Below, one piece after another: positions 50,190 through 55,201 of a stretch of DNA of 64,000 bases. Source of the stretch: Gallionella sp. (GTDB taxonomy: Bacteria; Pseudomonadota; Gammaproteobacteria; Burkholderiales; Gallionellaceae). Numbering within the stretch: position 1 is the stretch's first letter; every line of letters starts with the position of its first letter. The stretch lies in contig JAHFRA010000009.1 in assembly GCA_023259035.1 (NCBI GenBank), forward strand, positions 28,889 to 92,888, given 5' to 3'. Position numbers and translations under genes: made by a program. Under the pieces are notes generated by a model, which worked only from the letters and a program-made list of their open reading frames with translations, ran no database searches and was not told the origin of the DNA.

Positions 50190-50292
50190 TTTGTAGGGGC
50201 GCGATTCATCGCGCCCAAGATGCAGTGCCCAAGATGCGCCCAAATTAATAATAACGCGACAAACCGGGCGCGATAAATCTCGCCCCTACGGC
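50190..50292. repeat. REP doublet (BIME-like)
   Basis: tgtaggggcgcgattcatcgcgccc and gggcgcgataaatctcgcccctac in opposite orientation; same family as REPs around the RAYT gene. Confidence 0.85.
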
Positions 50293-50362: not shown

Positions 50363-51967
50363 ATGACCGCACCCCGCAAACCCGCAGGCCGCACACTGGC
50401 CGAATTCGAATTACAAGGACTCTCTCTGGCTGAACAGAAGCTGCTGGAGCACTGTCGGCTGGGGACCGTTGCGGACATTTCGGCTGAACGCCCCGAAGCG
50501 GCGACTGACGACAATACCGTGCGTGCCGCCTTCCTGCGCTTTCTCGCGCTGGGTGGGGACGAGCAAGCTCCGGTGCACGAACACGGTGTGCAATTAGTCG
50601 GCGCATGGATTGAGGGCGTATTGGATATGGAGGCGGCAAGAATTCTCTCAGACCTTACTATTAAAGCTTGCTACTTCGATAAGTCCCCTCTGTTTAGTAG
50701 AGCAAGGATTGCAGGGACACTTGATCTCAGTGATTGTGATCTTCTTAACTTTTCCGGGGATTCTCTTGTTTGTGATGGCGACTTGTTGTTGTGTCGCTGT
50801 TTAAGCTCATTCCTTGGAGTGCGACTTATGAACGCACAGATCGGTGGAAATCTCCAATGCAACGGCGCGAAATTTGATGGAGATGGTGGCGTTGCACTAT
50901 TGGCAGATCATGTCGTAATTAAGGGTAGCGTATTTCTGAGCGATGGCTTCTCTGCCACGGGGAAAGTGCGACTGCAAAGCGCACAGATTGCTGGAAACTT
51001 GGTATGCGACGGCGCGAAATTCGACGGCAAGGATGGTGATGCCTTGTCAGCAGATGGCATGATAGTCGAAGGAACTTTCTTTTTTAGAAACTTAGCTCCT
51101 TCGGTTAATGGCGTTTTCCTCGCTGCTAGCCATGTTGGATGTTTGGCAGACGATAAGGATAGTTGGGGCGAACGGCTCGTTCTAGATGGCTTTGTTTACG
51201 GCGGTATTATTGGTGTCGCCTGTAAAGCTCCAACTGACGCAGCTACCCGCCTCGCATGGCTGGATAAGCAAAGACCGGAACACGCCGGGCTCAACGGTGA
51301 TGGCGCAGACTTTAGACCTCAGCCTTGGCGGCAGCTTGCCAAAGTGCTACGGGAAATGGGCCATGCAGAAGATGCACGGCAAGTGGCGATTGCTTTCGAG
51401 CATCGCTTGCGTAGGGCAAGTTTGGTCAGGTATCCGCTTATACATTGGCTATTCGGTATATTTACCGGTTATGGTTATCGCCCCATGCGCCTACTGATTT
51501 CGATAGTTGTCGTATGGCTGTTCTGTGCGATGTTCTATTGGTATGCGGCCGCAGGGCAGGGCGTGTTTGCGCCGTCCAATCCGCTGGTGTTTCAAAATCC
51601 GAACTACGCCGTATGCGCGCCGGGCTATGTTGTGCCCGCCCCACAGGCCGAAAATGCCGCCCCGCCGACCGTGCAAGGTGCAGGCAACTGGTATTTGTGC
51701 GAAAAATTGCCTGAGGAATATTCTGGCTTCAGCCCACTGGCTTATTCGCTGGACGTGATCCTGCCGTTGGTGGATTTGCAGCAGGAAACCAGTTGGTCGC
51801 CGTTGGTTCCGACGCCCAAAGCCGTTTGGTATCAGGAATTATTCTCCTTCTGCGATTGGAAACATTTCACCCGTTTGGTGTTGTGGTTTGAAATCCTGTT
51901 CGGCTGGGTGTCCAGCCTGTTGCTGGTGGCGGTGGTTTCCGGTTTGACCAAGCGGCGCGAAGAATGA
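50363..51967 (+). CDS. Repeat (beta-helix/pentapeptide-like) protein with C-terminal transmembrane region
   Basis: Repeated ARIAGTLDLSDCDL / AQIGGNLQCNGAKFDGDGG / AQIAGNLVCDGAKFDGKDG; hydrophobic LLISIVVVWLFCAMFYWYA and LWFEILFGWVSSLLLVAVVSGL. Confidence 0.75.
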   Translation: MTAPRKPAGRTLAEFELQGLSLAEQKLLEHCRLGTVADISAERPEAATDDNTVRAAFLRFLALGGDEQAPVHEHGVQLVGAWIEGVLDMEAARILSDLTIKACYFDKSPLFSRARIAGTLDLSDCDLLNFSGDSLVCDGDLLLCRCLSSFLGVRLMNAQIGGNLQCNGAKFDGDGGVALLADHVVIKGSVFLSDGFSATGKVRLQSAQIAGNLVCDGAKFDGKDGDALSADGMIVEGTFFFRNLAPSVNGVFLAASHVGCLADDKDSWGERLVLDGFVYGGIIGVACKAPTDAATRLAWLDKQRPEHAGLNGDGADFRPQPWRQLAKVLREMGHAEDARQVAIAFEHRLRRASLVRYPLIHWLFGIFTGYGYRPMRLLISIVVVWLFCAMFYWYAAAGQGVFAPSNPLVFQNPNYAVCAPGYVVPAPQAENAAPPTVQGAGNWYLCEKLPEEYSGFSPLAYSLDVILPLVDLQQETSWSPLVPTPKAVWYQELFSFCDWKHFTRLVLWFEILFGWVSSLLLVAVVSGLTKRREE

Positions 51968-51998
51968 ACGGGCGCGGTGGAACAGGGTGCGAAAACAA

Positions 51999-52062
51999 GG
52001 GCGCGATGAATCGCGCCCCTACGAGATTTCGCACTGTAGGGGCGCAATTTATTGCGCCCGAT
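51999..52062. repeat. REP doublet upstream of RAYT core
   Basis: gggcgcgatgaatcgcgcccctac and gtaggggcgcaatttattgcgccc. Confidence 0.88.
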
Positions 52063-52374
52063 TTGCCGCCAAAATTTATTACATCCGATTCATCACCTGA
52101 CCCATCAACATTCCATCACGACATCCACCATCGCCGTTCCATCCGGCTGCGCTACTATGATTATTCGCAGGCCGGGGCGTATTTCATAACGCTGTGTACG
52201 CAAAAACGGGAATGTCTGTTTGGTGCGGTGGTGGGTGATGATATGCGGTTGAGCGATGCCGGGCGCATGGTGCAGGATATTTGGGATGCGTTGCCCGGTC
52301 ATTATTCCTGCGTTGAATTGGATTGTTTCGTTGTGATGCCTAACCATATCCACGGTATTGTGGTGTTGAACGGT

Positions 52375-52446
52375 GTAGGGGCGCAATTCATTGCGCCCAA
52401 TCATGATGGCGCGACAAACTCGGGGGCGATAAATCGCGCCCCTACG
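52375..52446. repeat. REP doublet inside the RAYT coding frame
   Basis: gtaggggcgcaattcattgcgccc and gggggcgataaatcgcgcccctac. Confidence 0.88.
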
Positions 52447-52647
52447 GTGGGTGAAATCATCCGAGCATTCAAGGCGCGTTGTACGCACAGGATCAATCAA
52501 TTGCGCGATATGCAAGGTGCGTCAATTTGGCAGCGCAATTATTACGAGCACATCATTCGCAGCGAATCCTCGTTGCAAGAAACCCGAGAGTATATTGCCA
52601 ATAACCCGGCACAATGGGCTAATGACCGTGAAAACCCGGATGCCGTA

Positions 52648-52677
52648 GGGGGCGCGATGAATCGCGCCCCCTACGGG
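52648..52677. repeat. REP at the RAYT 3' end
   Basis: gtagggggcgcgatgaatcgcgccccctac, near-perfect palindrome; followed by ggg tga stop. Confidence 0.88.
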
Positions 52678-52693
52678 TGAAAGGCATTAAGGC

Positions 52694-53470
52694 ATGAAGC
52701 ACATCCAGTCGCGCGACAACCCATTCTTCAAGGAACTCGCCAGGCTTGCCGGTTCGGCGCGGCAACGCGGCAAGGTGAAGCAAACCTTGCTGGACGGCGC
52801 GCATCTGCTGGCGGCGTATCTGGATTCTCAAAAACAGCCTCAACATATTCTGCTGAATGCAGCCGCGTTGCATGACGCGGAAATATCGGCTCTGCTCGAG
52901 CGAGCCGCCGCTGTGCCGGTAACGCAACTGGATGACAAGCTGTTCGCGGAACTCAGCGAACTGAAAACACCGAGCGGTATTCTCGCATTGATCGATCTGC
53001 CGCAGCCGTCGGGAACGATAGCCGCTAGTTGCTTCGCGCTGTTGCTGGAGGACATTCAGGATCCCGGCAATCTCGGTTCGATGTTGCGTTCGGCGGCGGC
53101 GGCGGGGTGTGATGCGGCGTTCCTTTCCACGGGCTGCGCCGATGCGTGGTCGCCAAAAGTGCTGCGCGCCGCAATGGGCGGGCATTTCGCGTTGCATATC
53201 CACGAGCGGCAGGATTTGTTGGGTGTGGCGAAGATGTTCTCCGGCGCGCTGCTGGCAGCCAGCCTGCAAGCCACGTGCAGCCTATATGACTGCGACTTGC
53301 GTGGCAGGGTGGCGTTCCTGATCGGCAACGAAGGGGCGGGGCTGTCTGCCGACTTGTTGAATCTTGCCACACGTCAAATTGCCATCCCGATGCCCGGCAA
53401 GATTGAATCGCTGAATGCCGCCGCGGCGGCGGCAGTCTGTTTGTTCGAGGTTGTGCGGCAGCGTAGCTAA
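52694..53470 (+). CDS. TrmH/SpoU family RNA methyltransferase
   Basis: LLEDIQDPGNLGSMLRSAAAAGCDAAFLS, FLIGNEGAGLSADLL, IPMPGKIESLNAAAAAAVCLFE. Confidence 0.95.
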   Translation: MKHIQSRDNPFFKELARLAGSARQRGKVKQTLLDGAHLLAAYLDSQKQPQHILLNAAALHDAEISALLERAAAVPVTQLDDKLFAELSELKTPSGILALIDLPQPSGTIAASCFALLLEDIQDPGNLGSMLRSAAAAGCDAAFLSTGCADAWSPKVLRAAMGGHFALHIHERQDLLGVAKMFSGALLAASLQATCSLYDCDLRGRVAFLIGNEGAGLSADLLNLATRQIAIPMPGKIESLNAAAAAAVCLFEVVRQRS

Positions 53471-55142: not shown

Positions 55143-55201
55143 GTAGCGTGCGCTGTGCGCACGGCAATACGACCGTAAATCGTGCGCACAGCACACGCTA
55201 C
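55143..55201. repeat. Inverted repeat element downstream of cheD
   Basis: gtagcgtgcgctgtgcgcacg and cgtgcgcacagcacacgctac, 21-bp arms, one mismatch. Confidence 0.85.

Follow-up and report, generated by a model that had tools for sequence, protein, structure and literature searches.

The DNA analysed here, a 64,000-nt stretch of a Gallionella sp. contig (hereafter the window), carries an ORF for a putative transposase that runs in frame through five of its own REP sequences, which raises the question of how a gene comes to contain such repeats and what keeps it readable through them. All five REPs lie where the first-pass annotation had placed them in the ORF, and none brings in a stop codon. 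By itself this is weak evidence for anything: each orientation of the REP closes one frame in three, and because two of three frames stay open per orientation, reading through five copies is not unlikely, the chance that five randomly placed REPs all stay open being about 13% ((2/3)^5). The features discussed below are collected in Table 1.

Table 1. Features of the RAYT locus (positions in the window; strand as reported).
Feature	Position	Strand	Remarks
Inverted REP pair	50193..50289	.	97 nt; same type as the ORF's REPs; upstream of the 534-aa gene
RAYT / TnpAREP ORF	51964..52680	+	238 aa if read from ATG 51964; position of the true start uncertain
5' flanking REP	51999..52022	-	In-frame reading GAMNRAPT; true start probably lies downstream
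5' flanking REP	52036..52059	+	In-frame reading VGAQFIAP; true start probably lies downstream
HUH motif NHIH	52342..52353	+	
Loop REPIN	52375..52445	+	REP (+) 52375-52398, spacer, REP (-) 52422-52445
Conserved tyrosine codon, YIANNP motif	52591..52593	+	
3' REP	52643..52676	.	'Double foot': perfectly palindromic, ends GTAG and CTAC; runs over the last codons
SpoU-family methylase gene	52694..53470	+	Synteny marker: adjoins RAYT in four further genomes

Judged by its sequence, the ORF is a REP-associated Y1 (HUH) transposase (RAYT/TnpAREP). The tyrosine of its YIANNP motif presumably plays the role known from the Y1 family. Together with NHIH and WQ, this motif fits the pattern NH[IFV]H, then WQ, then YIxNNP that is listed for TnpAREP subclass 2.4 in the main text of Quentin et al. 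2018 (PMC6006769). General family models score the protein weakly because of its insert: it reaches 22.7 bits against Pfam PF01797 (Y1_Tnp), below the whole-protein cut-off of 23 bits, and 61.9 bits in two stretches against the NCBIfam equivalog NF047646 (REP_Tyr_transpos), below the cut-off of 80 bits. The NF047646 match falls into two parts because the mid-gene REP pair splits it, which bears out the earlier claim that this doublet interrupts the transposase. PF01797, according to the main text of the same study, gives only partial coverage of class 2 proteins. A profile built from relatives (15 rows, the window's own protein among them) matches the window RAYT over its whole length with an E value of 3.4e-79.

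The REP-encoded insert is predicted to be disordered. In the AlphaFold2 model the core is confident, and pLDDT drops below 50 at residues 108-122, within the REP-encoded loop. The best PDB matches to the model are 4er8, the E. coli RAYT in complex with a REP hairpin, and IS200/IS605 transposases, as befits an HUH/Y1 core. E. coli TnpAREP with its REP (4er8) is the closest solved match, alike in fold and profile; however, it belongs to another subclass (2.2) and, unlike the window RAYT, has no REP-encoded loop. Three more RAYT-like genes, on other contigs of the window's own genome (G000; contigs C17, C18 and C31, loci L011-L013), score well above the NCBIfam cut-off, unlike the window gene.

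Among the five REPs, only the mid-gene pair clearly interrupts the protein as judged from the sequence. The N- and C-terminal copies are not supported as part of the interruption: they are flanking REPs of the kind normally seen with such an element, and treating all five as a single interruption was rejected for them on the grounds of frame spread and start position. The C-terminal REP trails the RAYT domain. The 5' REPs are probably untranslated, because candidate start codons sit downstream of them or near the core: the sole candidate common to the window and to genomes G132 and G027 is a TTG located 21 codons ahead of the conserved HHRRS and downstream of the 5' REPs (in the window perhaps the TTG near 52063), and in G111 and G036 an ATG lies 8 and 11 codons ahead of HHRRS, respectively. 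In the segment just past the 5' REPs, nonsynonymous changes are fewer than synonymous ones among the window, G132 and G027. The flanks of the window RAYT also carry the long or double-foot GTAG REPs that mark subclass 2.4.

With a length of 71 nt, the mid-gene pair forms a REPIN, two inverted REPs around a short spacer as defined by Bertels and Rainey 2011 (PMC3116915), placed where the HUH strand leads into helix alpha-C. Its size corresponds to that of REPIN copies in G132, G111 and G036, which peak at 71-72 nt. Unlike a typical REPIN, the window copy sits inside the RAYT gene, and the window genome has hardly any dispersed copies. Seven REPs were found in the window, the five within the ORF and the pair at 50193-50289; dinucleotide shuffles yielded none. 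Across the 2.88-Mb genome there are only ten REP sites (at most 3 mismatches), seven of which are those within this 2.5-kb stretch. A loose pattern counts 11 REPs in G000, 51 in G132 and 106 in G111, and a strict REPIN pattern matches once in G000 versus 19, 27 and 9 times in G132, G111 and G036. Many copies dispersed through the same genome, the other mark of a REPIN, are thus not seen in G000, which retains the enzyme with few dispersed repeats.

The loop REPIN has a spacer unlike that of most dispersed copies and similar to the G132 3' copy; the idea that the loop copy was the source of dispersed REPINs is unsupported, since the spacers differ. Part of the spacer of the pair at 50193-50289 (CGCGACAAAC) recurs in the loop REPIN. 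The 534-aa protein encoded at 50363-51967 has no Pfam match and lies next to RAYT only in the window and G027, other orthologous RAYT loci having different upstream genes (ScpA/ScpB-like by eye). This REP pair and the 5' REPs of RAYT enclose its gene, as if it had arrived between REPs. Farther downstream, at 55143-55201, two 21-nt arms separated by 17 nt form an inverted repeat (GTAGCGTGCGCTGTGCGCACG / CGTGCGCACAGCACACGCTAC) that begins with GTAG yet is unlike the REPs of the RAYT element.

The locus is inherited: four more genomes from the same bacterial family have RAYT adjacent to this SpoU-methylase gene, with a methylase 74-86% identical to the window's, giving an orthologous RAYT locus in five genomes. 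All four orthologues also keep a REP in this loop. The first-pass annotation had suggested self-insertion, and the in-frame interruption by the element's own REP pair stands, but a recent event does not, since orthologues with core dS of about 0.3 to 3 share the insert; a recent one-off self-insertion was likewise rejected because the insert is common to orthologues and relatives. With dN/dS of 0.04-0.27, the core sequence is under purifying selection, and the window gene, which has the TnpAREP subclass 2.4 motifs, is a RAYT kept by vertical descent.

Conservation within the loop reaches the nucleotide level. Pooled over ten pairs, synonymous change affected 6 of 75 sites in REP codons against 279 of 859 in the core (Fisher p 1.6e-6), in a test that used REPs still recognisable to the finder and is biased towards conservation. 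Loop dS among the orthologues is 0.14-0.40 versus core dS of 0.28 to about 3, a comparison with no REP-recognition filter but a short loop segment. All four Watson-Crick types are seen among the stem pairs of loop REPs, although the finder prefers intact hairpins, which inflates stem pairing and conservation figures. As single-stranded DNA, the loop REPIN region folds better than shuffled sequence, only moderately (z -2.26).

Recognisable REPs occupy the same loop in 34 of 39 distinct related elements. Homologues without loop REPs mostly have shorter loops, with an HUH-to-WQ length of 43-53 residues against 58 in the window, so that the first of the refuting conditions set earlier, the same protein segment in REP-less homologues, does not overturn the interruption. 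The site tolerates an insert, as had been proposed: the loop is predicted to be disordered and natural relatives without the REP exist, among them the healthy-looking L052, L054, L062, L063 and L091. In two plasmid-borne relatives (Chloroflexota and Bacteroidota), GTAG hairpins occur in the flanks and not in the loop. One element, L084 (core at 1339-1878), has the usual loop REPs and a further in-frame REP in another surface turn (VGARRAVPDLSRRAVPDLGTP between GEIV and MILN).

Loop and flanking REPs are both present in 28 of the 39 elements, and they are alike in type in 26 of these 28. The tree requires 12 or more switches of loop type, and three changes to account for presence or absence of the loop REP. 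When each 70%-identity cluster is represented by one element, inner REP similarity between a loop and its own flanks is 0.876 versus 0.389 when permuted (p about 5e-5); at 60% identity, with four clusters left, the result does not hold likewise (p 0.04). The exceptions to loop/flank agreement are L049 and L070. L070 and L069, whose cores are 89% identical, share the loop REP type but not the flanking REPs, a naturally occurring exchange of flanks that left the loop as it was.

The earlier suggestion that the REP may be shaped to be frame-neutral did not survive. One of three frames is closed per orientation, and a preference for multiples of three, sought among REPINs of three related genomes, is absent: net lengths divide 19 / 22 / 14 over remainders 0 / 1 / 2 in 55 pattern matches, nearly all of them dispersed and a few from RAYT loci or other REP types. 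Within the loop, 24 of 24 plus-strand REPs are in one frame, although these share ancestry and are not independent, while plus-strand REPs in the flanks spread over the three frames (10/11/8 for 5' REPs and 4/4/3 for 3' REPs). Because loop REPs share one frame, whereas flanking REPs and dispersed REPIN lengths vary, frame conservation in the loop is best seen as the result of selection on a coding loop and not as a property of the REP.

A single clean present/absent pair of the loop REPIN was found. G502 and G524 hold near-identical syntenic copies whose loops differ by exactly 72 nt, one REPIN, with the frame kept. The indel is bounded by CT dinucleotides, TTCT^[GTAG...GCCCCT]^ACGT, and the TnpAREP enzymes of E. 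coli and S. maltophilia cut at CT. The left junction of the window loop REPIN is GT, not CT, and the CT rule is therefore not shown in the window. Judging from the tree, loss is the likelier direction of the G502/G524 event than gain, because most relatives, the sister group included, have loop REPs.

We consider it likely that the window RAYT carries, in a loop that tolerates it, a cognate REPIN of ancient origin and that, in a last step that we infer, the enzyme still handles it as DNA. In an ancestor, a REPIN made of cognate REPs would have landed in the turn that joins the HUH strand to helix alpha-C; the 20-30 residues it added there would form a disordered loop at low cost. The RAYT itself may still act on the internal copy by cleaving single-stranded DNA at CT, followed by copying or exchange, and internal and flanking REPs would be replaced together when the REP sequence changes. 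Events that break the frame would be removed by selection. On this account the peptide would be a by-product, and the DNA hairpin would be what is kept. Could the loop instead hold a passive relic, the product of one ancestral insertion left untouched, with REP agreement explained by common descent and slow drift? A position and frame common across the family make one ancestral event enough for most cases, and L069 and L070 keep the same loop REP though their flanks differ. Yet loop type has changed at least 12 times, nearly always matching the flanks, and the synonymous sites of loop REPs are conserved where a relic should decay, so that we regard this reading as unlikely.

It is also quite improbable, in our estimate, that the internal REP is functional in its own right, either with RAYT binding the hairpin of its gene or mRNA to limit its own expression or with the loop copy tying the enzyme to the specificity of its repeats. 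Retention of the REP in most relatives, its nucleotide-level conservation and the better-than-shuffled folding of the region (z -2.26 as single-stranded DNA) would agree with such a role; the healthy-looking elements L052, L054, L062, L063 and L091, which do without a loop REP, speak against it. There is a small chance that the internal REPIN serves as a functional self-target through a translated copy of the enzyme's substrate, whether for autoregulation or as a donor that matches enzyme to repeat, in which case co-switching of loop and flanks would be enforced, not merely tolerated. That the gene is a decaying pseudogene, open through REP debris by chance, is highly improbable. Pfam and NCBIfam scores under their cut-offs and the lack of a clear start codon might suggest it, but the weak scores are due to the insert and the relatives' profile matches at E 3.4e-79, the catalytic motifs are kept, frameshifts are not seen in most orthologues, and core dN/dS of 0.04-0.27, on which both decay and the non-expressed pseudogene envisaged earlier were rejected, indicates purifying selection.

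The presence of REPs inside RAYT genes of one branch is already published (Quentin et al. 2018, PMC6006769). In its NHIH, WQ and YIANNP motifs and its flanking GTAG REPs, the double-foot form included, the window RAYT corresponds to TnpAREP subclass 2.4 as described in the main text of that study, with no difference in kind. What is added to subclass 2.4 here is the agreement of loop and flank type, the nucleotide-level conservation, the CT-bounded present/absent pair and the second site in L084; neither a co-switching test nor such a pair was found in the main text of the open papers covered. REPs lie inside many other genes (Di Nocera et al. 2013, PMC3733652), and that work and its references describe REPs and Rickettsia palindromic elements translated in frame within proteins, like the window loop. 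Those cases involve unrelated host genes, whereas in the window the repeat sits in the gene of the very transposase presumed to act on it. For the question of how RAYTs and REPs stay matched while REP sequences change, an internal REP that co-switches with its flanks is a natural record of such changes, with the exact present/absent pair as a testable footprint of REPIN movement.
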